A stretch of DNA of 55,767 nucleotides, taken from Crocinitomicaceae bacterium. Lineage in GTDB: Bacteria; Bacteroidota; Bacteroidia; Flavobacteriales_D; Crocinitomicaceae. Shown in pieces: positions 8,647 to 21,491 of the stretch. The stretch covers positions 1 through 55,767 of the forward strand of contig JANRBR010000023.1 of the NCBI GenBank assembly GCA_030727405.1. Reading direction: 5' to 3'. Under the pieces are notes generated by a model. The model was given only the letters and a program-made list of their open reading frames with translations, was not told the DNA's origin and made no database searches. The position numbers and the translations under genes are program-made. Each line of letters begins with the position of its first letter. Position 1 is the first letter of the stretch.

Positions 8647-8669
8647 TTATTGTAATTTGGACAATAATT
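8647..8669. promoter_or_regulatory. Operator candidate A, upstream of the sugar permease
   Basis: A perfect 9-bp dyad, AATTATTGT (8645-8653) and ACAATAATT (8661-8669), separated by 7 bp. It ends 13 bp before the permease start. It shares the core TTATTGTnnTTTnnACnATnnT with sites at 10843, 10976 and 19959. The likely binder is the Nudix-like regulator encoded two genes on. Confidence 0.6.
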
Positions 8670-8682
8670 TAAACCATTTTTT

Positions 8683-10107
8683 GTGAAAAAAACGAATTTC
8701 AGTGCTTTTGGCACCTTAATCACCATTTTCTTTTTTTGGGGCTTTGTTGCAGCAAGTAACGATATATTAATCCCCGTATTTAAAAAAGCGCTGCATCTAA
8801 GTCAACTTGAATCACAATTGATTTCTTTTGCCTTTTATGTTGCCTATACGGTAGGATCTATCCTCTATTTCGCTATTTCAGCCGCATTGAAAAAAGATGT
8901 CTTGAATAAAATTGGTTACCGAAATGGATTGTCCTTGGGATTAATCATTTCAGCAGTTGGAACATTATTGTTCATTCCAGCTTCCAATAATTCTTCGTTT
9001 ATCATGTTAATCTCTGGATTATTCATTGTTGGATTAGGGTTTGCCTTGCAGCAGATTGCCGCAAATCCCTTAGCCATTCAAATGGGAGATCCTTCCAAAG
9101 GAAACATTCGCTTGAGTATGGCAGGAGGAATCAATAATGTTGGAACAACGATTGGACCTGTAATTGTGTCGTTTGCCATTTTTGGAGGCCTTTCAAATGG
9201 AGATACCACATTAGACTTGAAGGCCGTTCAAACACCCTACTTATTCTTAGGATTGGCTTTCGTAATTGCAGCTATTTTCTTCAAATTCTCCTCTGTTCCA
9301 GACCGCATTGAAGGGTCTTCATCGGAAGGTGCAGGAAAAATCATGGAAACCATCAAACACCCTCAAGTAATATTGGGAATGTTGGCTATCTTCCTATACG
9401 TTGGAGTTGAAGTTGCGACCGCAAGCAATTTACCTGAATTCATGAAACAAAAATTAGGAACTTCTGAAAATGCTGTTGCCCCCTTTGTTTCCTTATACTG
9501 GGCTAGTTTAATGATCGGACGATGGACCTCTGCAGCAGGTGTGTTTGATCTAAGCAAAGTCATGAAAACCTTGTTAGGTGTAGTGTTGCCTTTTGTTGCA
9601 TTTGGAATTTTTGCCGGTGCAAATATCATTGGTGGACACGACATTCATGAGCTTTACCCATATCTAGGAATTGTCGTACTATTGATCATCGCTGACTATG
9701 CCAGCTCAGGAAATCCGGTGAAACAAATCATTATTTATTCCACCCTTGGTGCGATCGCACTTTTAGTTGGAATTTTCAGTTCAGGTATGGTGAGCGTTTT
9801 TGCCTTTATCTCGGTTGGATTATTTTGCAGTACACTTTGGCCATGTATTTTCACATTATCTATAGCAGGAATGGGAGAAAACACAAATACTGCATCGAGC
9901 TTATTGATTATGATGATCATGGGCGGCGGTTTCATATCTGTCCTTCAAGGGGCACTAGCAGATGAACAGGTCTTGGGAATTCAATATTCTTATCTGCTTG
10001 GAGTGGTTTGTTTTGTTTACCTTGCTTTCTTTGCTTGGAGCGTCAATCGCATATTACAAAAAAGAGGCGTAGACATCTTCTCCACTGAAAAAGTTTCTGG
10101 ACATTAA
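8683..10107 (+). CDS. FucP/GluP-type sugar permease (MFS)
   Basis: A 474-aa major-facilitator transporter with about 12 transmembrane helices. It resembles the fucose/glucose/galactose:H+ symporter family: an early FFFWGFVAASNDILIP segment in helix 1 and the AGGINNVGTTIGP segment before helix 5. Its role here would be inner-membrane uptake of the glucose released from the glucan by the downstream GH16 and GH3 enzymes. The start is GTG, preceded by operator candidate A. Only 17 bases separate its stop from the regulator ATG, so permease and regulator are probably one transcript. The exact sugar is an inference from context. Confidence 0.85.
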   Translation: MKKTNFSAFGTLITIFFFWGFVAASNDILIPVFKKALHLSQLESQLISFAFYVAYTVGSILYFAISAALKKDVLNKIGYRNGLSLGLIISAVGTLLFIPASNNSSFIMLISGLFIVGLGFALQQIAANPLAIQMGDPSKGNIRLSMAGGINNVGTTIGPVIVSFAIFGGLSNGDTTLDLKAVQTPYLFLGLAFVIAAIFFKFSSVPDRIEGSSSEGAGKIMETIKHPQVILGMLAIFLYVGVEVATASNLPEFMKQKLGTSENAVAPFVSLYWASLMIGRWTSAAGVFDLSKVMKTLLGVVLPFVAFGIFAGANIIGGHDIHELYPYLGIVVLLIIADYASSGNPVKQIIIYSTLGAIALLVGIFSSGMVSVFAFISVGLFCSTLWPCIFTLSIAGMGENTNTASSLLIMMIMGGGFISVLQGALADEQVLGIQYSYLLGVVCFVYLAFFAWSVNRILQKRGVDIFSTEKVSGH

Positions 10108-10124
10108 ATATTGTTTTTGTGAGC

Positions 10125-10820
10125 ATGTATCGCATTAATTTTAATGATTTTTTCACTTCTGCATTTTCGGTTGATTGCATACTCTTCGGGTATTCAGAAG
10201 GTGAAATTAAAGCGTTACTGATCAAAAGAGCCATGCAGCCTTTTGAGAACCTATGGGCAATACCCGGTGATTTGATTTACCCCGATGAGGACTTGGAGCA
10301 AGCAGCAGAACGTGTTTTATTTGAGTTAACTGGACTCAACAACATCAAGATGCACCAATCTCAAACGTTTGGAAAACCCAATAGACACCCACAGGGTAGG
10401 GTAATCACCATCTCCTACTTTGCATTATTGCGCATCGAAGATTTTGAAGTAAAAGCCTCCTCTTGGGCAGGCGATGTTCAATGGGTTTCACTGAAAAACA
10501 TGCCTGATTTGGCCTTCGATCACAATCACATCCTTGCGAGCACCTATGAAATGCTCAAACTAAAGCTGCAAAACGAACCCATTTGTTTCGATTTGCTTCC
10601 AGAACGATTTACATTGAATGAATTTCAGCAATTGTATGAATTTGCTTTTGAACAGGCCTTCGATAAAGCTAATTTCAGAAAGAAAATAAAGTACATTCCA
10701 CTTATTGCTCACGATGAAAAGCAACAAAATGTCAAACATCGTCCAGCAAAATTATTTTCCTTTAATAGAGAACAGTACCTGCTTTCTCTTGAAAATAATA
10801 GCTATACCTTTAAAATGTAG
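10125..10820 (+). CDS. Nudix-fold transcriptional regulator (NrtR/AraR-like)
   Basis: A 231-aa protein with an N-terminal Nudix-like domain (about 12-130) and a C-terminal winged-helix domain (about 145-225). This is the architecture of NrtR regulators and of Bacteroides AraR. The Nudix box is degenerate: the segment around ERVLFELTGL keeps the spacing but lacks the paired acidic residues of REUxEE, so hydrolysis is unlikely and ligand sensing likely. FGKPNRHPQGRVITISYFAL is typical of the family. A GTG at 10119 is possible, but the ATG at 10125 is preferred. It sits between permease and susC with matching palindromes on both sides, so it is the natural local regulator. The ligand is unknown. 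Confidence 0.82.
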   Translation: MYRINFNDFFTSAFSVDCILFGYSEGEIKALLIKRAMQPFENLWAIPGDLIYPDEDLEQAAERVLFELTGLNNIKMHQSQTFGKPNRHPQGRVITISYFALLRIEDFEVKASSWAGDVQWVSLKNMPDLAFDHNHILASTYEMLKLKLQNEPICFDLLPERFTLNEFQQLYEFAFEQAFDKANFRKKIKYIPLIAHDEKQQNVKHRPAKLFSFNREQYLLSLENNSYTFKM

Positions 10821-10842
10821 CACAAAAAAACTTTTTTCATAC

Positions 10843-10865
10843 TTATTGTATTTTATACAATTATT
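10843..10865. promoter_or_regulatory. Operator candidate B, after the regulator gene
   Basis: A near-perfect palindrome, TTATTGTAT-TTT-ATACAATTA, plus two further bases of the shared 23-bp pattern. It ends two bases before a TATATTTA box, so a bound regulator would cover a promoter. Its TTG (10846-10848) is 19 bp from that box, a correct -33 distance. Confidence 0.55.
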
Positions 10866-10867
10866 TA

Positions 10868-10875
10868 TATATTTA
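10868..10875 (+). promoter_or_regulatory. Possible promoter inside the regulator-susC gap
   Basis: TATATTTA (TAnnTTTG with one mismatch) follows operator B, with TTG 19 bp upstream. A transcript would start near 10880 and meet a strong terminator at 10926. Confidence 0.35.
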
Positions 10876-10879
10876 CCAT

Positions 10880-10948
10880 GACTGTAGTGAACATTTCGAA
10901 TAGTCAATGGTTAAATACTTAGTAAAGAGGCTTCGGCCTCTTTTTTTT
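10880..10948 (+). ncRNA. Candidate short RNA under operator control
   Basis: This roughly 65-nt stretch lies between a plausible promoter that touches operator B and a perfect terminator hairpin. It would be expressed with the glucan locus. An alternative is that it is simply the 3' end of the permease-regulator message. A 14-codon ORF (ATG 10878 to TAG 10922) exists, but its ATG lies at or before the expected start site. Nothing in the sequence proves transcription. Confidence 0.25.
10926..10948 (+). terminator. Intrinsic terminator before susC
   Basis: AGAGGC-TTCG-GCCTCT followed by a run of eight T. The stem is perfect, with a stable UUCG tetraloop. It separates the permease-regulator unit (or the candidate short RNA) from the susC operon. 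Confidence 0.9.
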
Positions 10949-10975
10949 ATGAACCACGTATGCAATGAAAAAAAC

Positions 10976-10998
10976 TTATTGTTCTTTTTACCATAATA
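10976..10998. promoter_or_regulatory. Operator candidate D, upstream of susC
   Basis: Carries all invariant positions of the TTATTGTnnTTTnnACnATnnT pattern, with TTATTGT on the left and ACCATAA on the right. It lies 10 bp before the susC -7 element and overlaps the expected -33 region. Confidence 0.55.
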
Positions 10999-11008
10999 GT
11001 AAATTTTC

Positions 11009-11016
11009 TATATTTA
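11009..11016 (+). promoter_or_regulatory. -7 element for the susC operon
   Basis: TATATTTA, one mismatch from TAnnTTTG and the same octamer as at 10868. It ends 19 nt before the susC ATG at 11036. TTTA at 10987-10990 could serve as -33. Confidence 0.4.
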
Positions 11017-11035
11017 CGAAACTAACAATGCTAAA

Positions 11036-14000
11036 ATGATTCAAAAACTATTCATTCAAATCCTTTTTATCGGTTTAGGAAGCTTTGCTTTTTCGCAAGA
11101 GCTATACGTGTCCGGACTGGTAAAAAGCGAACAGAACATTGGACTACCCCTTGTTAAAGTTCAAGTAAAAGGTCAAAATACCGGTGTAATGACCGATGGA
11201 AGTGGCTTTTATCGATTAAAAGTATCCGATTCAACCACATCGGTCTTGATTTTCTTTCTCATTGGATATGAAAAACAAGAGGTAACACTAAACGGTCGCT
11301 TAAACCTGGACATCACCCTTGCGGAACTCGTAAACAACCAACAAGAAGTTGTGGTTGGATATGGAACCTCAAAAAGCAAAGAATTAACAGGTGCAAATAC
11401 TAAAATCAACGGTGAAAATGTTGAAAAAATGAGTGTTGCTCGCGTAGACCAAGCCTTACAAGGTCAAGTTGCCGGTGTAAACATCGCAACAAACTCAGGA
11501 TCACCGGGTGGCTCTTCAAGCATCCGAATCCGTGGTTTATCGACTTTTGGAGACAACGATCCTTTGATCCTTGTAGACGGTGTTGTGTATGACTCTGAGG
11601 GATTAAACGCTTTGAATCCATCTGATATTAAGTCAATTAACGTTTTAAAAGATGCCACAGCTGGTATTTACGGTGTGCGTGCCGCAAACGGTGTGATCAT
11701 CGTTGAAACCAAGAAAGGAAATGTCAACAGCAAGCCTCAAATTGAATACAATGGCTATTGGGGACAACAACAAACTTCCCGAAAACTAGACCTTTTAACT
11801 GCGCAAGAATACGCCGTGATTAAAAACGAAATGTTTGGTCTAGGTGGACAAGCCATACCGTTCAACAATACCAACTTAGGTGTCGGAACGCCTTGGCAAG
11901 ATTCAGTTTTTCAATCAGCTCCTATTCAAAGCCACAACCTCAGCATTAGCGGTGGTACGATGAATACACGTTATTCTATTGCCCTTGGCTATTTTACGCA
12001 AGATGGAATTGTTGGAGGTTCAAAATCCAATTTTTCGCGTTACAATGCACGCATGAATTTAAGTACAGATATGTCTGCGAAATTAAAAATGAATTCCGTT
12101 TTGCTTTATTCAAACGATTCACGCAGTACCTTGCCAGAAAATGGGATTGGATCTGTGTTGTACAATACCATCAATGCCTTCCCAAATGTGCCGATTCGCA
12201 AGCCAAATGGACAATTCTCCTACATGGAAGAAGTGAGCGACATCATCAATCCTATTGCACAAATGCAAAACCAGTACAATTGGAATACTGCAAACAAACT
12301 CGTTGGAAAAGAAGAGTTTATCTATTCATTTAACGATCATTTGTCTTTTACAAACCGCTTAAACTATAACGTAGCCTTTGTTGATGCGAAAGTATTTTCT
12401 CCGCTTGTTTGGTATGGTGACGGTAAATATGCAAATACCGCATTAAACGATCAATTGGAATCTCCAACCGTGGAACTTGCTCCAGGAGTCGAAATCAATC
12501 GTGGTGCGGCGGTTTATGAAGACCGTTCAACTTTTGTTGATTTGACATATGAGAGCTTCCTTAACTACGAAAAAACGTTTGCTGAAAAACATAAAATCAA
12601 AGGAACTGCTGGTATTTCCATCTTTCAACGAAAAGGAAGTTCTTTAAGCGGAACAGGATTTGGTATTCCAAACAACTCAGTAGATTACGCAGACATCTCA
12701 GCAAATACGGCTCAAGGTGGTTATTTGAACAATGTTGGCTCTTGGGAATTTACAGAGCGCCTTGTTTCCTCGTTCCTACGTGCAGAGTATGGATACAAAG
12801 AAAAATACCTATTCTCCGCAATCCTTCGTCGAGATGGATCAAGTAAATTTGGACCGAACAGCCGTTATGGCTTCTTCCCTACTGCTGCTGCTGGTTGGGT
12901 GCTTTCTGATGAGGACTTCTTCAAAGTTAAGTTCATCAACTACGCTAAATTGCGCGTAAGCTACGGTGTATCAGGGAATGACCAAATTCCAAACTTTGCT
13001 TATCGTGGCTTATTAAACGGTGAAGGAGTGTATGTTTTTGATGATTTAATCACTCAAGGAGTAGCTATTGGACGTCCTTCAAACCCCGACTTGAAATGGG
13101 AAACAACACGTCAATTAAACATTGGTGCGGACTTTACCTTCTGGAAAAACCTTGATTTTACCACAAATTACTTTATTAAAAACACTTTTGATTTATTGTT
13201 TCAACCAGATGTAACGGCTATTATTGGTTCTTATGGACCTGGAGGATATCCACCAGTAATCAATGCAGGAAACGTATCCAATAAAGGTGTTGAATTAGAA
13301 TTTGCTTACCACATTCGCAAAAAGAAAGATTTCTCTACAGACCTTAACTTCAACGTAACAACCATTACAAACAAAGTTACCAAAGTGCCAAATGGCGTTG
13401 ATTACATCCCTGGAGCTGGATTCAGCGTTGGTGGAGACATTGCAACTCGATTCCAAGAAGGATACGAAATTGGGTATTTCTTTGGTTATCAAACCGCTGG
13501 AATCTTCCAAACGCAAGAAGAAATCGATGCCGCAGGAGTTGTTCAAGAAGGAGCAAAACCAGGAGACATCATATTTGTCGATCAAAACGGAGATGGAAAA
13601 ATCAGCTTTTCAGACGATAGTGATAAAACATACTTAGGATCTGCGATTCCTGATTTCACCTTCGGATTTAACTTCAACGTGCGCTACAAAGCATTTGATA
13701 TTTCTGGTATGATTTACTCCGCTATCGGTCAAGAAATCATTCGAAATTATGAGCGTCAGCAACCATATGCCAATCAATTAGGATACATGGTAGACCGCTG
13801 GACAGGACCAGGTTCAACAAATGAGAATCCGCGTGTAACAACCGAAGCAACACGAAACAACTTATTCTCCTCTTATTATGTGGAAGACGGTTCTTTTGCT
13901 CGTTTGAAAAACATTCAAATCGGATACAGCTTCCCTGCACCGAAATTGAAAAAAATCAAAGTAGAATCTTTCCGTATTTACGTATCAGCAAACAACTTGA

Positions 14001-14128
14001 TTACCTTAACACGTTACCAAGGATTCGACCCAGATCTAGGTTCATCCAGCGCACTTTCATCAGGAGTTGACTACGGATTTTATCCGCAAGCAAAAACATT
14101 CATGGGTGGTATTCAATTAAAATTTTAA
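11036..14128 (+). CDS. SusC/RagA-type TonB-dependent glycan transporter
   Basis: A 1030-aa outer-membrane transporter that imports glycan oligomers with TonB energy. The signal peptide ends near FAFS/Q20. A carboxypeptidase-regulatory-like domain (about 24-108) is followed by the plug, with the family signature SSSIRIRGLSTFGDNDPL, LILVDGVVYD and GVRAANGVIIVETKKG. The rest is the 22-strand barrel ending in a terminal Phe (IQLKF). It is the first gene of a run (susC, susD, PKD, GH16, GH3) with gaps of only 3-27 bases, so one operon. Substrate inferred from the GH16/GH3 partners: a beta-1,3-glucan such as laminarin. Confidence 0.95.
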   Translation: MIQKLFIQILFIGLGSFAFSQELYVSGLVKSEQNIGLPLVKVQVKGQNTGVMTDGSGFYRLKVSDSTTSVLIFFLIGYEKQEVTLNGRLNLDITLAELVNNQQEVVVGYGTSKSKELTGANTKINGENVEKMSVARVDQALQGQVAGVNIATNSGSPGGSSSIRIRGLSTFGDNDPLILVDGVVYDSEGLNALNPSDIKSINVLKDATAGIYGVRAANGVIIVETKKGNVNSKPQIEYNGYWGQQQTSRKLDLLTAQEYAVIKNEMFGLGGQAIPFNNTNLGVGTPWQDSVFQSAPIQSHNLSISGGTMNTRYSIALGYFTQDGIVGGSKSNFSRYNARMNLSTDMSAKLKMNSVLLYSNDSRSTLPENGIGSVLYNTINAFPNVPIRKPNGQFSYMEEVSDIINPIAQMQNQYNWNTANKLVGKEEFIYSFNDHLSFTNRLNYNVAFVDAKVFSPLVWYGDGKYANTALNDQLESPTVELAPGVEINRGAAVYEDRSTFVDLTYESFLNYEKTFAEKHKIKGTAGISIFQRKGSSLSGTGFGIPNNSVDYADISANTAQGGYLNNVGSWEFTERLVSSFLRAEYGYKEKYLFSAILRRDGSSKFGPNSRYGFFPTAAAGWVLSDEDFFKVKFINYAKLRVSYGVSGNDQIPNFAYRGLLNGEGVYVFDDLITQGVAIGRPSNPDLKWETTRQLNIGADFTFWKNLDFTTNYFIKNTFDLLFQPDVTAIIGSYGPGGYPPVINAGNVSNKGVELEFAYHIRKKKDFSTDLNFNVTTITNKVTKVPNGVDYIPGAGFSVGGDIATRFQEGYEIGYFFGYQTAGIFQTQEEIDAAGVVQEGAKPGDIIFVDQNGDGKISFSDDSDKTYLGSAIPDFTFGFNFNVRYKAFDISGMIYSAIGQEIIRNYERQQPYANQLGYMVDRWTGPGSTNENPRVTTEATRNNLFSSYYVEDGSFARLKNIQIGYSFPAPKLKKIKVESFRIYVSANNLITLTRYQGFDPDLGSSSALSSGVDYGFYPQAKTFMGGIQLKF

Positions 14129-14131
14129 GCA

Positions 14132-15601
14132 ATGAAACGCATTCAACAAACACTTTTATTTACAGGACTACTTGTTCTGTCCATCACACAAACAGGATGT
14201 GATAAATTCTTAACGGTTGATCCACCTTACACACAAGATGTGGAGAATTTCTTCCAAACACCGGAAGATTACGACCGTGCATTAACCGGGGCATATGACA
14301 TGCTTCAAGCTTCTTTCTTAACGTTATGGCTCGGTGAGATTGCATCTGACAATTCCATTGCGGGTGGCGAAAGTGTGAACGACTCTCCAGGACTTCATCA
14401 AATTGATGCGATGAATCATGGCGGTGTCAACAATGAACTTCGCAACGTGCTTCGATGGAATTACACTGGAGTTACCCGCGCTAATTACATTTTGGAAAAC
14501 CAAGACAACATTGAATTTCCAGGAAAAGCGCATATTCTAGCTGAAGCAAAGTTTTTACGTGCTTATTACTATTTCGAATTAGTGAAGTACTTTGGTGATG
14601 TTCCATTGATCGTAGACCGAAGAATTGGTATAGATGAAGCATTGCAAATACCGCGTTCTTCTAAAGCAGACGTTTATGCTCAAATCGAGCTAGACTTAAT
14701 AGACGCTGTGGCAGTGTTGAATCCTGTTGCGAGTCAAAAGGGGCGCGCAACCAAAGGAGCAGCTCAAGCATTCCTCGGAAAAGTATACTTGTACCAAAAT
14801 AAATTTACCGAAGCAGCAGCTACTTTTGACGAAGTCATCGCTTCTGGAAGCTATAGCTTGATTCCTAACTACAACGACCTATTCACAGTTGCAAACGAAA
14901 ACAATTCGGAAACAGTATTTGACGTTCAATACACTGGATTAGAAGGTGGAAGTTATGGTTGTTTAATTTGCCTAGAAGGAAATGCTGCCGTTGGTTTCCA
15001 AGGAATCAGACAATACAACGGTCCCGTTTATGGCGATGGAAACAGCTACAACCTCCCTACCCAAGAATTGTATGACGCGTTTAGTTCAATCGATCCACGC
15101 AGAAATGCAACTATTCTAGACATTGATGCATTCATTGCAACTCAACCAAATCCAGCATCCATTACCTATGCTGTAGGAGCTGGCGGACATACCGGTTATT
15201 ACAACAACAAATACATCAAACGCCAAGGAGAAATCGGATTACCTGACAATGACTTAACAAGTCCAGTTAATTACCGCGTAATGCGCTATGCAGATGTTAT
15301 GTTAATGGCCGCTGAAGCACACTACCAACTTGGAAACACTTCTACCGCTCAACAACTAATCAACCAAATCAGAGCGCGCGCAGGTGTTCCGGGAATCAAT
15401 GTTAACTCCATCGATGTCATCTACAAAGAACGACGCTATGAACTTTCAGGTGAAGGACTTCGATTTTTCGATTTAGTTCGCACAGGACAAGCAGCAACGT
15501 ACATCAACGGTTTCGTTGTTGGCAAACATGAATTATTTCCCATTCCACAAGTTGAAATCGACTTAGCAGGTGGTAATTGGGCTCAAAATCCAGGATATTA
15601 A
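14132..15601 (+). CDS. SusD/RagB-type surface glycan-binding lipoprotein
   Basis: A 489-aa lipoprotein that forms the lid of the SusC channel and captures oligosaccharide at the cell surface. The lipobox TQTGC gives Cys23, followed by DKFLTVDPP, a typical SusD start. The alpha-helical TPR-like region contains AKFLRAYYYFELVKYFGDVPL, the best-conserved SusD stretch, and the C-terminus has YEL-GEGLRFFDLVRTG. It starts three bases after the susC stop. Specificity cannot be read from sequence; the neighbours point to laminarin-like glucan. Confidence 0.95.
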   Translation: MKRIQQTLLFTGLLVLSITQTGCDKFLTVDPPYTQDVENFFQTPEDYDRALTGAYDMLQASFLTLWLGEIASDNSIAGGESVNDSPGLHQIDAMNHGGVNNELRNVLRWNYTGVTRANYILENQDNIEFPGKAHILAEAKFLRAYYYFELVKYFGDVPLIVDRRIGIDEALQIPRSSKADVYAQIELDLIDAVAVLNPVASQKGRATKGAAQAFLGKVYLYQNKFTEAAATFDEVIASGSYSLIPNYNDLFTVANENNSETVFDVQYTGLEGGSYGCLICLEGNAAVGFQGIRQYNGPVYGDGNSYNLPTQELYDAFSSIDPRRNATILDIDAFIATQPNPASITYAVGAGGHTGYYNNKYIKRQGEIGLPDNDLTSPVNYRVMRYADVMLMAAEAHYQLGNTSTAQQLINQIRARAGVPGINVNSIDVIYKERRYELSGEGLRFFDLVRTGQAATYINGFVVGKHELFPIPQVEIDLAGGNWAQNPGY

Positions 15602-15611
15602 ACTTTAGCTT

Positions 15612-16463
15612 ATGAACATGAAACTCATTTTTTCAGCGTGCATCATGATGTTGCTCGTAGCATGTAAAAAAGACAATCCTCAGTTAGGAGATGCACCAAC
15701 ACTTGCTGATGCTTCCTTTACCTATGCGCCATTAGCGAGCAATGCCAACATCATTGAATTTACGGCAAATAACCCCAACGTTCAATGCGTATGGGATTTC
15801 GGTAATGGAACCACTGCAAAAGGAGCGAGCGTTTCTTCGCCCTATCCGTATGCGGGAACATACACGGTGAAATTAACCGTATTTTCATCTGGAGGCAGCA
15901 AAAGTACGACTCAAGAAATAACCATTGCACAAGATAATCTTGGCCTACTAAACAACCCTATTTTCATCATGTTAACAGGTGGTGTAAACGGTCCAGGTTT
16001 TAAAACATGGGTTATTGACTCCACTGCAGATGGCCACATGGGCGTTGGTCCAGATCCAATCAGTCCACTAGGAAACATCCCAGAATGGTGGTCAGCTGGA
16101 CCTCTTGATAAATCGGGAGCTGGCCTATACAACGATAAATACGTTTTTCATTTGAACGGTTTCAAATTCGATATGATCAACTTCGGTGACGTATACGTGC
16201 ACAACTCATTAGCTGCTAATTTCCCAGGATCCTTTCAAAACCTAGGAGATTTTACAGCGCCATACAATGATGTGATGAACGAATCATGGACCTTGGTAGA
16301 AGGAGCAGATACAACTATTACTCTTTCTAACAATGCGTTCCTTGGTTTTTACACCGGAGTTCAAACCTATAAAATATTGGAAATCACAGACTCTACCCTA
16401 TCTTTACAGTACAAACACCACGCTGGAGGACTAAATTGGTACTTGCGTCTTAAAACTGAATAA
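15612..16463 (+). CDS. PKD-domain lipoprotein, probable glycan-binding protein
   Basis: A 283-aa lipoprotein (lipobox LLVAC, Cys18). Residues about 35-105 form a PKD-type beta-sandwich with the VWDFGNGTTAKG and YPYAGTYTVKLTV signatures. The C-terminal half, about 115-283, is unassigned; aromatic residues in it (Trp, Tyr) would suit sugar binding. In glucan loci of marine Bacteroidota the gene after susD often encodes a PKD-containing surface glycan-binding protein in the SusE/F position, and this fits. The second ATG at 15618 is an equally possible start. No catalytic motif is seen. Confidence 0.75.
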   Translation: MNMKLIFSACIMMLLVACKKDNPQLGDAPTLADASFTYAPLASNANIIEFTANNPNVQCVWDFGNGTTAKGASVSSPYPYAGTYTVKLTVFSSGGSKSTTQEITIAQDNLGLLNNPIFIMLTGGVNGPGFKTWVIDSTADGHMGVGPDPISPLGNIPEWWSAGPLDKSGAGLYNDKYVFHLNGFKFDMINFGDVYVHNSLAANFPGSFQNLGDFTAPYNDVMNESWTLVEGADTTITLSNNAFLGFYTGVQTYKILEITDSTLSLQYKHHAGGLNWYLRLKTE

Positions 16464-16475
16464 AACACTTTGATC

Positions 16476-17567
16476 ATGAGCATTCACCACCTTCTTATTT
16501 TTGTTTTTGCCGGCATGGCTGGTTGCGATAAAAACAAACCGCCTCAAGTACAGTTGCCTACTAATTTAGTAACGGAAATTACGGTGACCGGGGGCTTGGT
16601 TGATGTTCAAGCATCTGCTCAAAATGCCAATTTTTACACCGTTACCTTCTACCATAACAACGATTCAACCGTGGTAGAAACAAACGATGGACAAGCAGAT
16701 TATACCTTCGCGGCTTCAGGCACTTATACGATAAAAACAAGTGCTCACACTACCTACACTGATTTCATTAGTAAAGTAGAAAGCGTAAGTGTTACCGTTT
16801 CTGGAGGAAGCTCATCAGGTGCGCCAGCAACTGGTTATACAACGCCACTTAACTATCCAAACTATTCGCTTGTTTGGAATGATGAATTTAACGGCACCAC
16901 ACTTTCATCCGATTGGACTTTCGATATTGGAACCGGAAGTGGTGGCTGGGGAAACAATGAATTGGAATATTACACCAATCAGAATTATGTCATAAATGGT
17001 GGCGTTCTAGCCATTACAGCAAAAAACCAACCTTTTAATTCTTCCTTGTATACTTCAACGAGGATGAAAACCCAAGGACTTAAGTCTTGGAAATATGGCC
17101 GTATAGACATTCGTGCTGCATTGCCATACGGACAAGGAATATGGCCAGCGTTGTGGATGTTAGGTGACAACATAACAACCGTCGGGTGGCCTTCATGTGG
17201 TGAAATTGACATCATGGAATTAATTGGAGGCGCTGGTGCAAATGATCGAACCGTGCATGGAACTGCTCATTGGAGCGACAATGGCGTTCACGCGTCATAC
17301 GGAGGCAGTAAAGTTCTTTCTTCTGGAAAATTTGCGGATGAGTTTCACGTGTTTTCCATCATTTGGAATCAAAATAGTATTACATGGTTGTTGGACGATG
17401 TTCCTTATAAAACCTTGGATACGACCCCAGCAAATTTAAGTGAATTCCAAAATAAGTTCTTCTTGATTTTCAATGTAGCCGTTGGAGGAAACTGGCCAGG
17501 AAATCCCGATGCAACTACCGTTTTTCCACAAACAATGTATGTTGACTATGTTCGCGTCTTTCAATAA
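16476..17567 (+). CDS. GH16 endo-beta-1,3-glucanase (laminarinase) lipoprotein
   Basis: A 363-aa lipoprotein (lipobox GMAGC, Cys17) anchored in the outer membrane. Residues about 28-110 form a PKD-like module, then a Ser/Gly linker, then a GH16 domain from about 128 to the end. The catalytic signature is GEIDIMELIG, with nucleophile Glu243, Asp245 and acid/base Glu248. ELEYYTNQN, KYGRIDIRA, GIWPALWMLG and the terminal NVAVGGNWPG are typical of laminarinases (EC 3.2.1.39 or 3.2.1.6). A TTG six bases upstream is possible, but the ATG at 16476 gives a normal lipoprotein start. Licheninase specificity cannot be excluded. Confidence 0.93.
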   Translation: MSIHHLLIFVFAGMAGCDKNKPPQVQLPTNLVTEITVTGGLVDVQASAQNANFYTVTFYHNNDSTVVETNDGQADYTFAASGTYTIKTSAHTTYTDFISKVESVSVTVSGGSSSGAPATGYTTPLNYPNYSLVWNDEFNGTTLSSDWTFDIGTGSGGWGNNELEYYTNQNYVINGGVLAITAKNQPFNSSLYTSTRMKTQGLKSWKYGRIDIRAALPYGQGIWPALWMLGDNITTVGWPSCGEIDIMELIGGAGANDRTVHGTAHWSDNGVHASYGGSKVLSSGKFADEFHVFSIIWNQNSITWLLDDVPYKTLDTTPANLSEFQNKFFLIFNVAVGGNWPGNPDATTVFPQTMYVDYVRVFQ

Positions 17568-17594
17568 AAGAGCAGGCATTAAACCATTCCTATC

Positions 17595-19898
17595 ATGAAA
17601 AAATTATCTTACTACTTAGGTGGGACACTTGTGCTGTTGTTCTCCTGTAAAAGTGTACAACACATTTCAACTTCACAAAATCCACAAGAAGACAAAGCCA
17701 TTGATGCCATCATTGCTCAAATGACCGTGGAAGAAAAAGTTGGACAAACGTGTCAAATAACCTTAGATGTGATCACAAAAACCGATTCGAAAGGGGCAGC
17801 ACTTATTCCAGCTACCATTGATACGGTAAAATTAAACGAGGCACTTTTCAAATACCACGTTGGTTCAGTGCTCAACGTTGGCGCACATACGCTATCCTTG
17901 GATGAATGGAAAGGAATCATCCAATCCATTCAACAACCATTCGTGGATGGGAAAACAAAAACGCCCATCATTTATGGAATTGATGCCATTCACGGAATTA
18001 ATTATACCATTGGAGGTACTTTATTCCCTCAAGAAATTGGTTTGGCGGCTACATGGAATACAGAATTAGCTAAAACCTTTGGTGAGATTACTGCTTATGA
18101 AACCCGTGCTTCAGGAATTCCATGGAATTTTTCCCCAGTATTGGATCTAGGAAGACAGCCCCTTTGGTCAAGAACCTTTGAAACCCTTGGTGAAGACCCT
18201 TACCTTGTTTCAGAAATGGGTGCAGCCATTATTGATGGATACCAAGGTGGTAACAAGATCGATGACAAACACGTTGCCGCTTGCATGAAACATTTTGTTG
18301 GTTACAGTGGTGCTAATAGCGGACGTGATCGAACACCGGCATGGATTCCCGAAAAATACATGAAAGAACTCTATTTACCTTCCTTCAAGAAAGCCGTTGA
18401 ACATGGAGCATTGACCGTGATGATCAACAGTGGCGCAGTGAATGGAATTCCAGGACACATCAACCATCATTTAATCACAGAAACCCTAAAAAATGAATGG
18501 GGATTTGAAGGATTCGCTGTTTCTGACTGGGAGGATTTCATCATGCTACACACCGTTCACCGCACTGGTACATCATTGTCCGATGCTTATATTCAAGCAT
18601 TTAACGCTGGTGTAGATATGAGCATGGTGCCCTTAAGTCCACAGTACAAAGAATACTGCGAAATCATGGTACAAGCCGTTAAATCAGGAAAAATCACAAT
18701 GGATCGCCTCGATGATGCCGTAAGAAGAATCATTCGTGTGAAACGCAGACTTGGCTTGTTTGAACAAGCCATTCCGAAGTTTGACGCCTACCCGAAATTT
18801 GGTAGCAAAGAATTTAAACAAGCATCTTTAAATGCTGCCATAGAATCCATTACCCTACTTAAAAACGAAGGGAATGTTTTACCGCTTTCTGCGAAACAAA
18901 AAGTATTGATTGCCGGACCTGCCTCAGACAACCTAATTTATTTGAATGGTGCATGGACACATACCTGGCAAGGAGTTGATACAAGCTATAACACCAAAGG
19001 TTCTATGACCATTCGTCAGGCATTCGAGCAAAAAATCGGCAAAGAGAATTGCCTTTTTTCAAAAGGAGCAGAAATTTACAGTGAAGCAGACTTTGAAAAA
19101 ACCCGTTTTGTTGACCTAGCGGATTACAAACAAAAATTAGGTCAAGCAGATGTGGTCGTTTTATGCCTTGGAGAATTACCATCCACAGAAAAACCAGGAG
19201 ACATTTTGTCCTTGAACCTCCCGCCTGAACAACGTGAACTTGCAAAATTGGCATACGAACAAAATAAAAAGGTCATCTTAGTTCTATTGGAGGCACGACC
19301 TAGAATTATCCACGACATTGTTGCACCAGCAGCAGCCATTATTCAAGGTTATTTACCGGGAGATTATGGCGCAGAAGCCTTGGTTAAATTAATGTACGGA
19401 GAGAATAATTTTAGTGGGAAGCTTCCTTACACCTATCCTAAATTTGACGGAGTAATAGAATTTTATGACCATCCACGAAGCATAGATCGTTCAAAATCGG
19501 GAGATTTCTCAGCTTACAATCCAGAATGGGACTTTGGATATGGACTTTCTTATGCTCAATTTGAATATGAAAACCTGTCTTTACAAACAGACGTGTTACA
19601 TGGAAACGATAGCCTTCAAATTACGGTGCGTGTAAAAAACACGAGTGGCATCAATGGAAAAGAAGTGCTGCAACTATACATCAGCGATGATTTCGCTAGC
19701 ATGATTCCCAGTGGAAAATCCTTAAAGCGCTTTGCAAAACTGAACATTGCAGCGAATGGTGTTGAAAGCAAAACTTTTTACATCTCCAAAAAAGACTTGA
19801 TGTTTGTAGGATCTAATGGTGAATTCATTGTGGAAGATGGAACCTTTACAGTTAGCGTAGGTACTCTCAAAAAAACCTTTACATACTCGTCAAAATAA
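17595..19898 (+). CDS. GH3 beta-glucosidase lipoprotein
   Basis: A 767-aa exo-acting glycoside hydrolase that would release glucose from beta-glucan oligomers. The lipobox LLFSC gives Cys18, so the enzyme is membrane-anchored, probably facing the periplasm or surface. The GH3 N-terminal barrel contains KHFVGYSGANSGRDR and GFAVSDWEDF with nucleophile Asp311. The GH3 C-terminal domain and a fibronectin-III-like domain (about 670-767) complete it. Length matches BglX-type enzymes. Last gene of the susC operon; it follows GH16 by 27 bases. Confidence 0.94.
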   Translation: MKKLSYYLGGTLVLLFSCKSVQHISTSQNPQEDKAIDAIIAQMTVEEKVGQTCQITLDVITKTDSKGAALIPATIDTVKLNEALFKYHVGSVLNVGAHTLSLDEWKGIIQSIQQPFVDGKTKTPIIYGIDAIHGINYTIGGTLFPQEIGLAATWNTELAKTFGEITAYETRASGIPWNFSPVLDLGRQPLWSRTFETLGEDPYLVSEMGAAIIDGYQGGNKIDDKHVAACMKHFVGYSGANSGRDRTPAWIPEKYMKELYLPSFKKAVEHGALTVMINSGAVNGIPGHINHHLITETLKNEWGFEGFAVSDWEDFIMLHTVHRTGTSLSDAYIQAFNAGVDMSMVPLSPQYKEYCEIMVQAVKSGKITMDRLDDAVRRIIRVKRRLGLFEQAIPKFDAYPKFGSKEFKQASLNAAIESITLLKNEGNVLPLSAKQKVLIAGPASDNLIYLNGAWTHTWQGVDTSYNTKGSMTIRQAFEQKIGKENCLFSKGAEIYSEADFEKTRFVDLADYKQKLGQADVVVLCLGELPSTEKPGDILSLNLPPEQRELAKLAYEQNKKVILVLLEARPRIIHDIVAPAAAIIQGYLPGDYGAEALVKLMYGENNFSGKLPYTYPKFDGVIEFYDHPRSIDRSKSGDFSAYNPEWDFGYGLSYAQFEYENLSLQTDVLHGNDSLQITVRVKNTSGINGKEVLQLYISDDFASMIPSGKSLKRFAKLNIAANGVESKTFYISKKDLMFVGSNGEFIVEDGTFTVSVGTLKKTFTYSSK

Positions 19899-19900
19899 AT

Positions 19901-19919
19901 CCTTTTTAAACCAAAAAGG
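19901..19919 (+). terminator. Weak hairpin after the GH3 gene
   Basis: CCTTTTT-AAACC-AAAAAGG, a 7-bp stem just after the stop codon but without a following T run. It may stabilise or partly end the operon transcript. Confidence 0.3.
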
Positions 19920-19958
19920 CACTTAGTTGTTATATGAAAAAATGCGATTTTTTTTAGG

Positions 19959-19981
19959 TTATTGTATTTTTTACTATATTA
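19959..19981. promoter_or_regulatory. Operator candidate C, upstream of the T9SS protein
   Basis: Matches the shared pattern TTATTGTnnTTTnnACnATnnT at all invariant positions; the left half is perfect and the right half (ACTATAT) is degenerate. It lies 25 bp upstream of a perfect -7 box, so it is placed further from the start than sites A, B and D. Confidence 0.5.
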
Positions 19982-20042: not shown

Positions 20043-21491
20043 ATGAAAAAACTGTACTTATTTTTTCTTTTGCCATTTTTTGGCTTAAATGCCCAAGTAG
20101 AAGGTACTTGGAAACTTGCTCCACAAGCGGGAGCTTTGGGAGTTGGCCCTTCTTTGGGGAATACTTCTTGGTGGTCAAACTCAACGGGAGACGTAACCAC
20201 ACGTGCTTGTTTATTTGATGATTCCATCAAATTCGAACAAGGTGTTATGACTCATTACATGGATGGAAGCACATGGTTAGAGCCATGGCAAGGTAGCACT
20301 CCAGAAGCATGTGGTACTCCAGTCGCTCCTCACGTAGGTGGACAAGCAGCGTATGAATTCGATGCGACAGCAGGTACATTGACTGTGAATGGATTAGGTG
20401 CTCACCTTGGATTAGCTAAAGTAATCAACGGAGCAGAAATTGCTAGTCCAGCAAACGCTGCATCTAGCATCACTTATGATGTTGTTTTCTCCAATGGCGG
20501 TAACACAATGACGGCAACAATCAACTTCGGAACTGGTGTTTGGCAGTTCGTTTACCAAAAAACTCAAATCGTTCAGGCGGCAACACCATTGATTACGTTC
20601 CAAGTGGACATGAACAACTACACTGGTGCAGCTTTCACAACGGTTTACGTAAGTGGAACATTTAATGGATGGAGCGGAAACGCAAACCCAATGACTGACG
20701 CAAATGGTGATGGTATTTGGGAAGTTACTTTACCAATCAACGCTGGTGCAATTGAATACAAATTCTCTTTAGACGACTGGGCTAACTCTGAGCAATTTGC
20801 TGGAGGAGAGACATGTACCATTACGAGTGGTGGCTTTACCAACCGTGCTTACACAGTAGCTGGTGATGCGAATCTTGGAGCTGTTTGTTACGAAAGTTGT
20901 TCAGTTTGTACTTCAGACGTTACATTCCACGTAGACATGAATAACTACACTGGTGCAGCTTTCACAACGGTTTACGTAAGTGGAACATTTAATGGATGGA
21001 GCGGAACGTCAAACCCAATGGCAGATGCAAACACAGATGGTATTTGGGATGTTACATTGCCATTACCAAACGGTACAATTGAATACAAATTCTCTTTAGA
21101 CGACTGGGCTAACTCTGAGCAGTTCGCTGGAGGTGAAACATGTACAATTACAACAGCAGGATTCACAAATCGTGTATACACTGTAACAGGTGCTAACGTA
21201 ATGGATACTGTTTGTTATGCTAGCTGTGATGCTTGTATCGCTGGAATTGCAAACAATGCAACAACAACGTTAAAAGTAATGCCTAACCCGGCTAACACGT
21301 CTTTCAACATCGTTTCTTCTGATGTAATCAATTCTGTTGAGTTGGTTGACCTTAGCGGAAAATCAGTACGTAAATTGGTTGGTTCTGCTTCAGAATTAAC
21401 GGTGAACGTATCCGATCTTGTTCAAGGAATTTACACAGTAATCGTTCGTACTGAAAACGGTACGTCAACTTCTCGTGTAATTGTTGAGTAA
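20043..21491 (+). CDS. T9SS-secreted multidomain putative glycan-binding protein
   Basis: A 482-aa secreted protein. The signal peptide ends at LNAQ. Residues about 21-180 form a domain starting GTWKLAPQAGALGVGP, which I recall from Bacteroidota glucanases and glucan loci as a non-catalytic, probably carbohydrate-binding unit. Two tandem 109-residue modules follow (184-292 and 293-401), with TVYVSGTFNGWSG and IEYKFSLDDW, resembling the beta-sandwich of starch/glycogen-binding (CBM20/48-like) domains. The tail (MPNPANTSF to RVIVE) is a type A T9SS sorting domain. No glycosidase motif is seen. Own promoter, operator and terminator; probably a secreted or surface-bound accessory of the glucan locus. 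Confidence 0.8.
   Translation: MKKLYLFFLLPFFGLNAQVEGTWKLAPQAGALGVGPSLGNTSWWSNSTGDVTTRACLFDDSIKFEQGVMTHYMDGSTWLEPWQGSTPEACGTPVAPHVGGQAAYEFDATAGTLTVNGLGAHLGLAKVINGAEIASPANAASSITYDVVFSNGGNTMTATINFGTGVWQFVYQKTQIVQAATPLITFQVDMNNYTGAAFTTVYVSGTFNGWSGNANPMTDANGDGIWEVTLPINAGAIEYKFSLDDWANSEQFAGGETCTITSGGFTNRAYTVAGDANLGAVCYESCSVCTSDVTFHVDMNNYTGAAFTTVYVSGTFNGWSGTSNPMADANTDGIWDVTLPLPNGTIEYKFSLDDWANSEQFAGGETCTITTAGFTNRVYTVTGANVMDTVCYASCDACIAGIANNATTTLKVMPNPANTSFNIVSSDVINSVELVDLSGKSVRKLVGSASELTVNVSDLVQGIYTVIVRTENGTSTSRVIVE
20592..20918 (+). repeat. Tandem module copy 1 (109 codons)
   Basis: First of two direct in-frame repeats with a period of 327 nt. Positions 20616-20679 are identical to 20943-21006, third codon positions included, as is a 46-nt stretch encoding IEYKFSLDDWANSE. 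Confidence 0.9.
20919..21245 (+). repeat. Tandem module copy 2 (109 codons)
   Basis: Second copy. By eye about three quarters of residues equal copy 1; differences cluster near the middle loop and the Cys-rich end. Both copies keep four cysteines near the same places (GETC, CY, SC, C). Confidence 0.9.

Follow-up and report, generated by a model that had tools for sequence, protein, structure and literature searches.

A Nudix-fold regulator and its predicted operators at a beta-glucan locus of a Crocinitomicaceae bacterium

We analysed a 55,767-nucleotide stretch of DNA (the window; contig JANRBR010000023.1, assembly GCA_030727405.1) from a Crocinitomicaceae bacterium, in which a palindromic site, TTATTGT-N7-ACAATAA, recurs around a set of beta-glucan genes that includes a gene for an NrtR-family regulator (positions 10125-10820). 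The predicted operators are very probably bound by this protein, and we consider it likely that it controls, as a sugar-released repressor, a beta-glucan regulon marked by the dyad. To our knowledge, little has been described on how Bacteroidota switch on laminarin use.

Four sites, starting at 8647, 10843, 10976 and 19959, lie between genes, as claimed in an earlier note on this DNA, and each is an exact match to the site pattern TTATTGTNNTTTNNACNATNNT. Operator A is perfect over the 14 arm positions of the dyad and operator B nearly so, again as described, although the dyad core measures 21 bp and not the 23 bp given there. The sites precede the sugar permease, flank a terminator-like hairpin and precede the type IX secretion system (T9SS) gene, at the distances listed here, which agree with the placement first proposed.

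8647..8667, + strand: operator A, perfect dyad (14/14 arm positions), ending 15 bp before the start codon (8683) of the major facilitator superfamily (MFS) permease gene
10843..10863, + strand: operator B, 13/14 dyad, beginning 22 bp past the regulator stop codon, with a -7-like box TATATTTA at 10868
10976..10996, + strand: operator C, 13/14 dyad, ending 39 bp before susC (11036), with a -7-like box TATATTTA at 11009
19959..19979, + strand: operator D, 12/14 dyad, ending 63 bp before the CBM48/T9SS gene (20043), its right arm overlapping a -7-like box TATATTAG at 19975

Bacteroidota promoters have a -33/-7 architecture with a TAnnTTT-like -7 box. Judged by this general consensus, -7-like boxes overlap operator D and lie 4 bp past B and 12 bp past C, and their offsets vary between operators (16, 25 and 33-34). 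A sigma-70 promoter scan, which returned 23 sites against a shuffle mean of 37.4, was left unused.

Genome-wide (42 contigs, 2,233,639 bases) the pattern matched exactly at these four sites and nowhere else, extending to the whole genome what had been said of the window; no site differed from it by one base and 38 differed by two, so that random occurrence elsewhere in the 2.23-Mb genome was not borne out. The reversed control pattern gave 12 + 7 matches with up to two mismatches in the same genome, and when the window was shuffled 100 times with its dinucleotides preserved, no exact match arose. Because the pattern was derived from the same four sites on which it was scored, the fair tests are the presence of the dyad in relatives and its co-occurrence with the regulator.

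For the first of these we used 38 orthologous loci from within the family, 684,024 bases in total, picked from the orthologue list for spread and contig span. The dyad was found 35 times in perfect form; allowing one mismatch in 14 raised the count to 67, spread over 36 of the 38 loci, and the concern that it might not be conserved upstream of orthologous genes was not borne out. Both its spacing and its arms proved specific in these loci: spacings from 0 to 15 other than 7 gave between 0 and 2 dyads, and 41 permuted arms gave a mean of 1.1 and a maximum of 4. None of the 67 dyads falls inside an open reading frame (ORF) of at least 90 codons. The genes that begin within 400 bp after them are susC (28), GH3 (10, alone or divergent with another gene), CBM48 (8), MFS (6) and other ORFs (9), and the remaining six dyads have no ATG-started ORF behind them, some of these preceding a GTG-started MFS gene. 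Gene order varies among the loci (for example GH3-regulator-CBM-GH16), and the sites remain with the same genes. A site identical or nearly identical to operator A precedes the MFS gene in relatives, and the operator D variant TTATTGTATTTTTTACTATAT is found again before the orthologous gene.

Co-occurrence was scored over 240 genomes of the family, 100 of which have an orthologue, defined as a regulator match at E 1e-60 or better and including G154 (45% identity) and three fragments (G079, G198 and G222). Perfect dyads were present in 84 genomes, comprising 71 of the 100 with an orthologue and 13 of the 140 without (Fisher p 6e-24, ignoring relatedness). Seven of the 15 perfect dyads examined in genomes without an orthologue (from 12 of the 13) fall inside genes. 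Three orthologue-less genomes with sites, namely G115 (before genes for glyceraldehyde-3-phosphate dehydrogenase (GAPDH) and a Glyco_hydro_2_C protein), G136 (pyruvate dehydrogenase E1) and G096 (a PD40 protein), are only 75-83% complete, and the regulator may therefore merely be absent from the assembly.

The regulon appears to extend beyond the locus. We built a model of 53 sites, which includes those of the source genome and of some genomes later scanned with it. In the source genome, where 150 of 2,140 first-look candidates were scored, the four window sites ranked at the top and were followed by a fifth, C20:18878 (L146), some 8 bp before an unlinked gene for a 437-residue secreted protein (SEC437) with a T9SS tail and no Pfam family beyond that tail. 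Homologues of SEC437 (52-61% identity) carry sites in five other genomes (L212, L217, L218, L220 and L225), which makes SEC437 a probable genuine member of the regulon despite its unlinked position. All 24 further genomes scanned with the model also gave matches, a result that is not independent because these genomes supplied part of the model's own sites.

In relatives we considered as trans dyads those perfect dyads that sit at least about 10 kb away from the regulator or on a contig other than its own, with counts taken among the matches listed. Genes behind such sites that were identified by Pfam encode GAPDH (L112, L118 and L134), glucose-6-phosphate dehydrogenase (G6PD; L107, L109 and L115), Glyco_hydro_2_C-type TIM-barrel proteins (L104, L110, L114, L135, L137 and L138), a GH16 protein with a T9SS tail (L119), an SSF symporter (L117) and an MFS permease (L121); MFS permeases in L110 and L113 were assigned by their similarity to the window permease, and additional GAPDH, G6PD and E1 genes were recognized from their N termini alone. 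A trans site precedes the pyruvate dehydrogenase E1 gene in L136, in a genome where no orthologue was detected. Other genes so placed encode T9SS-tailed proteins, a lectin/PKD protein, a photolyase divergent to a T9SS protein, and proteins without a family. In several genomes the site precedes a permease, GH3, GH16, CBM48 or SEC437 homologue remote from the regulator. The beta-glucan regulon proposed in the earlier note is supported, but it is wider than the locus, given SEC437 in trans and central sugar-metabolism genes in some relatives.

The regulator has the domain order of the NrtR family, with Pfam scores of 47.7 for NUDIX (cut-off 21.1) and 64 for NrtR_WHD (cut-off 27). The Nudix signature GX5EX7REUXEEXGU, which is impaired in NrtR-family regulators (PMC4666351), is broken here by replacement of the first glycine with Asp51, of RE with RV66 and of EE with EL70, and D51, R65 and L70 are invariant in 15 aligned orthologues; together with the Pfam matches these replacements confirm that the protein is a degenerate Nudix regulator. 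Its closest solved structure is BtAraR (E 6e-47), followed by Shewanella NrtR, and an AlphaFold2 model (mean pLDDT 83.4) best matched apo-BtAraR, with a TMq of 0.77-0.78 for 5bs6. As described for BtAraR, L-arabinose is held by Arg34, Arg86 and His131, and the co-crystal operator is GTGT-N7-ACAC, in which Lys179 reads G7, Arg180 intercalates between T8 and G9, and Asn181 and Lys184 read the T10-A18 pair; every DNA-contact residue, Arg180 included, is conserved in AraR orthologues (PMC4666351). In 68 aligned regulator rows, in which some genomes are represented twice, the equivalent sensor residues Arg37, Arg89 and His135 are invariant, the pocket residues Gly48-Phe49 of BtAraR have become Asp-Leu throughout, and Arg180 is replaced by alanine in all 68. 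All 15 aligned orthologues retain the base-reading residues Lys179, Asn181 and Lys184, and the beta-glucan operator preserves G9, T10 and the N7 spacing, with a T at position 7 where the AraR operator has a G.

A natural comparison is offered by a second NrtR protein in the source genome (G000:C35, L060 8614-9423), encoded near genes for GH65, a HAD enzyme, an MFS carrier, GH13 and a BadF-type kinase, a gene content that marks its locus as maltose-type. This locus carries a GTGT-N7-ACAC dyad that overlaps the first codons of a TTG-started ORF, and the true start of the paralogue is therefore probably downstream of that TTG. In a chosen sample of 22 paralogue loci the dyad adjoining the regulator is GTGT-N7-ACAC in 19 and has mixed arms in three, and TTGT-N7-ACAA adjoins the regulator in none of the 22; this count replaced an earlier criterion (self-complementarity at 6 or more of the 7 arm positions) that missed most sites. 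Eighteen of the loci have at least the BadF kinase near the regulator (17 GTGT-N7-ACAC and one mixed), and the other four belong to more distant NrtR proteins without maltose genes (two GTGT and two mixed). When all intergenic DNA of the 18 was counted, it held 17 GTGT, four TTGT and one mixed dyad; two of the TTGT dyads precede a homologue of the window MFS permease (L091 and L098). In a midpoint-rooted tree the beta-glucan clade is sister to the maltose-paralogue clade, and BtAraR lies outside on a long branch.

All 22 paralogues have Arg180, which would suit a rule relating residues 179 and 180 to the operator base, Lys179-Arg180 meaning GTGT. Across the order, where 20 loci were also a chosen sample, this rule is upheld only partly. 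Eight loci with Gly180 gave 15 TTGT and no GTGT dyads, and three with Thr/Ile179-Arg180 gave three and none; counting against the rule, three Lys179-Arg180 loci gave one TTGT and no GTGT, and six Ala180 loci gave two GTGT, two TTGT and one mixed. Separately, a GTGT-N7-ACACTTT dyad at G000:C1:10709-10729 in the source genome is possibly another paralogue site.

Several further observations weigh against control of the dyad by the window regulator. No perfect dyad is found in 29 of the 100 regulator-bearing genomes, although a site with one mismatch is present in all eight loci scanned from these 29. Among the trans dyads listed, four of 24 in orthologue-bearing genomes fall inside genes. Regulator orthologues occur at E 1e-55 in genomes of five more families within the order (f2, f5, f6, f9 and f11), yet outside the family the dyad, with at most one mismatch, is present in just nine of the 20 orthologue loci. 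Of 35 loci scanned for their best site, four had it within an ORF (L210, in a 95-codon ORF, and L215, L224 and L232), and another, L222, had no site over the model threshold. The ranking in the source genome covered only the scored candidates noted above, and operator A has no clear -7 box. Finally, G176 (contig C105, L121 3030) keeps the permease operator with no orthologue at E 1e-55, which could be an orphan operator or could reflect a recent loss of the regulator.

By analogy with BtAraR, the sugar-free regulator dimer would bind the TTATTGT-N7-ACAATAA operators and sugar would release it. Operator A would be bound just before the MFS start codon, B and C over promoter-like boxes, or just ahead of them, that would serve a short RNA, susC or both, D in the same way for the CBM48/T9SS gene, and the additional operator at C20:18878 before the unlinked secreted-protein gene. 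Breakdown of beta-glucan would supply a small sugar, likeliest D-glucose, to the cytoplasm, where it would enter the Nudix pocket at Arg37, Arg89 and His135, turn the winged helices as in BtAraR and free the operators. Glucose or a close relative is favoured as effector for two reasons: the targets act in the degradation of glucan and the import of sugar, joined in relatives by the catabolism of glucose, and the pocket retains its sugar ligands with changed walls. Even so, we rate this choice as evenly balanced, and laminaribiose might serve instead.

That the regulator represses and does not activate is probable on analogy with its relatives. An activator, or a protein that requires sugar for binding, would be an unlikely alternative; it could draw on the operator-to-box distances, which differ between sites as given above. 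On the other hand, BtAraR loses DNA affinity once it holds arabinose, and repression is the role described for NrtR proteins of the NAD type (PMC4666351). The -7-like box that overlaps operator D, and those that closely follow B and C, suit occlusion of the promoter.

It is also conceivable, but quite improbable, that another factor binds the dyad, for example a global Crp-like regulator or the maltose-locus paralogue, and that the Nudix protein is a bystander. In Bacteroides, operons under AraR and XylR control are described as having Crp-like palindromes upstream of them (PMC3878776), the paralogue is present in the same genome, perfect dyads occur in the 13 genomes without an orthologue, and in L097 a perfect TTGT dyad, one of the four mentioned above, stands right behind the paralogue. 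However, the sites follow the orthologue, nearly half of the dyads examined in orthologue-less genomes lie inside genes, paralogue loci have a different operator adjoining their regulator, and the dyad geometry is that of the AraR co-crystal operator. These points, together with the linkage of gene and sites and the conservation of the sites at orthologous and rearranged loci, favour the Nudix protein as the predicted binder, as the earlier note had proposed. The notion that the motif is a mere conserved Bacteroidota promoter, suggested by some B-type sites in which a TAnnTTT-like box stands 19-21 bp away from the left-arm TTG, was rejected as scarcely credible, given that the arms are specific, that a fixed N7 spacing is needed while the offset to the -7-like box varies, and that the dyad occurs at only five places in the source genome and is absent from 127 of 140 regulator-less genomes.

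The DNA between operators B and C has features of its own.

10924..10948, + strand: terminator-like hairpin, 8-pair stem and T run, between B and C (terminator scan)
10878..10948, + strand: candidate short RNA or leader, from the operator-B promoter (transcription start assumed, with its own -7-like box) to the hairpin

Terminator-like sites in this region were no more numerous than in shuffles, and Rfam gave no family match in the window. The stretch of about 70 nucleotides is single-copy in the source genome. Over 189 loci with a regulator match, many of them from the same genomes, the window version was found in 42 (13 distinct sequences, 21 nucleotides invariant), and a second conserved version, carried by a sister group and ending in a hairpin, in 38 (14 distinct; for example L047, L048, L050, L057 and L063). 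In 14 of 14 distinct sequences of the second version the hairpin loop GAGTG complements an upstream CACTC, a pairing that could form a kissing-loop or an anti-termination element. A hairpin stands directly before susC in nine loci (6 distinct), and 36 (19 distinct) have a site but no such element. Small RNAs linked to polysaccharide utilization loci (PULs) are known in Bacteroides, and the conserved stretch may be an operator-controlled small RNA or a susC leader.

The genes of the locus are as follows.

8683..10107, + strand: MFS sugar permease, NagP/GluP/FucP-like (Pfam MFS_1; NCBIfam NagP 159.5 and gluP 156.9 bits, both under their cut-offs)
10125..10820, + strand: NrtR/AraR-like regulator, Nudix-like sensor and NrtR winged helix (Pfam NrtR_WHD, NUDIX and AraR_C over cut-offs)
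11036..14128, + strand: SusC-like TonB-dependent receptor (NCBIfam TIGR04056 784.6 bits, over cut-off)
14132..15601, + strand: SusD-like lipoprotein (Pfam SusD_RagB)
15612..16463, + strand: PKD-domain protein (domain search)
16470..17567, + strand: GH16 protein, beta-glucanase family (Pfam Glyco_hydro_16 78.9 bits)
17595..19898, + strand: GH3 protein (top NCBIfam match exo-beta-1,3/1,6-glucosidase, under cut-off)
20043..21491, + strand: protein with CBM48/CBM53-like modules and a T9SS sorting tail (domain searches)

The regulator start at 10125 is the third codon of an ORF at 10119 and agrees with the orthologue alignment; the upstream neighbour, a DXP synthase gene, was left out of the locus. 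From their families, the GH16 protein presumably has laminarinase activity and the GH3 protein is presumably a beta-glucosidase.

A broader picture may be drawn tentatively, with the balance slightly against it: two paralogous Nudix-fold repressors would share glucan use in Flavobacteriales of this group, one for alpha-glucans (GTGT) and one for beta-glucans (TTGT, with glucose catabolism in some lineages), separated by replacement of the DNA-intercalating Arg180 with alanine or glycine, and the beta-glucan repressor would also drive a conserved short RNA between its own gene and susC. If the proposed control is true, laminarin-type loci in many lineages gain a regulator, an operator matrix and candidate targets, and the natural pair of paralogues with different operators in one cell would make the effector and the specificity residue directly testable.

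Set against known systems, the locus resembles the laminarin PULs of marine Bacteroidota, with a SusC/SusD pair accompanied by GH16 and GH3, the combination given as the shortest variant in PMC6794258; the main text of that paper contains neither the word 'regulator' nor 'nudix', whereas the window locus carries a Nudix-fold regulator. No paper linking NrtR or a Nudix regulator with laminarin was found in the open-access library that was searched, and an earlier description in RegPrecise or in subscription journals may exist. Shewanella NrtR, the ADP-ribose-responsive regulator of NAD genes, shares the Nudix domain and the NrtR winged helix, but the window regulator scores 140.3 bits on NF050029 against a cut-off of 400, and we rejected an NAD-type identity; no NAD-synthesis gene and no arabinose gene was seen among the 30 Pfam-scanned proteins at the trans sites listed. 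NrtR sugar regulons are described in Bacteroides for arabinose and xylose (PMC4666351, PMC3878776), and the predicted xylose regulator XylR (BT0791) is alike, by its description, in family and in its link to sugar catabolism (PMC3878776). The closest counterpart is BtAraR (BT0354), the L-arabinose repressor of Bacteroides, which has the same fold, domain order, broken Nudix signature, sensor residues, GT-N7-AC operator geometry and control of SusC/D genes, but only 35-37% identity, and from which the window regulator differs in Ala180, in the T at operator base 7, in the Asp-Leu pocket and in its beta-glucan-linked genes. The AraR precedent invoked in the earlier note thus holds for family and geometry and not for identity: with Arg180 replaced, the pocket altered and no AraA_N match in the source genome, membership of AraR was rejected. 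The system is a new branch of the known NrtR regulator family and no new kind of system: it employs the AraR machinery on a new operator and for new targets, and probably responds to a new effector.

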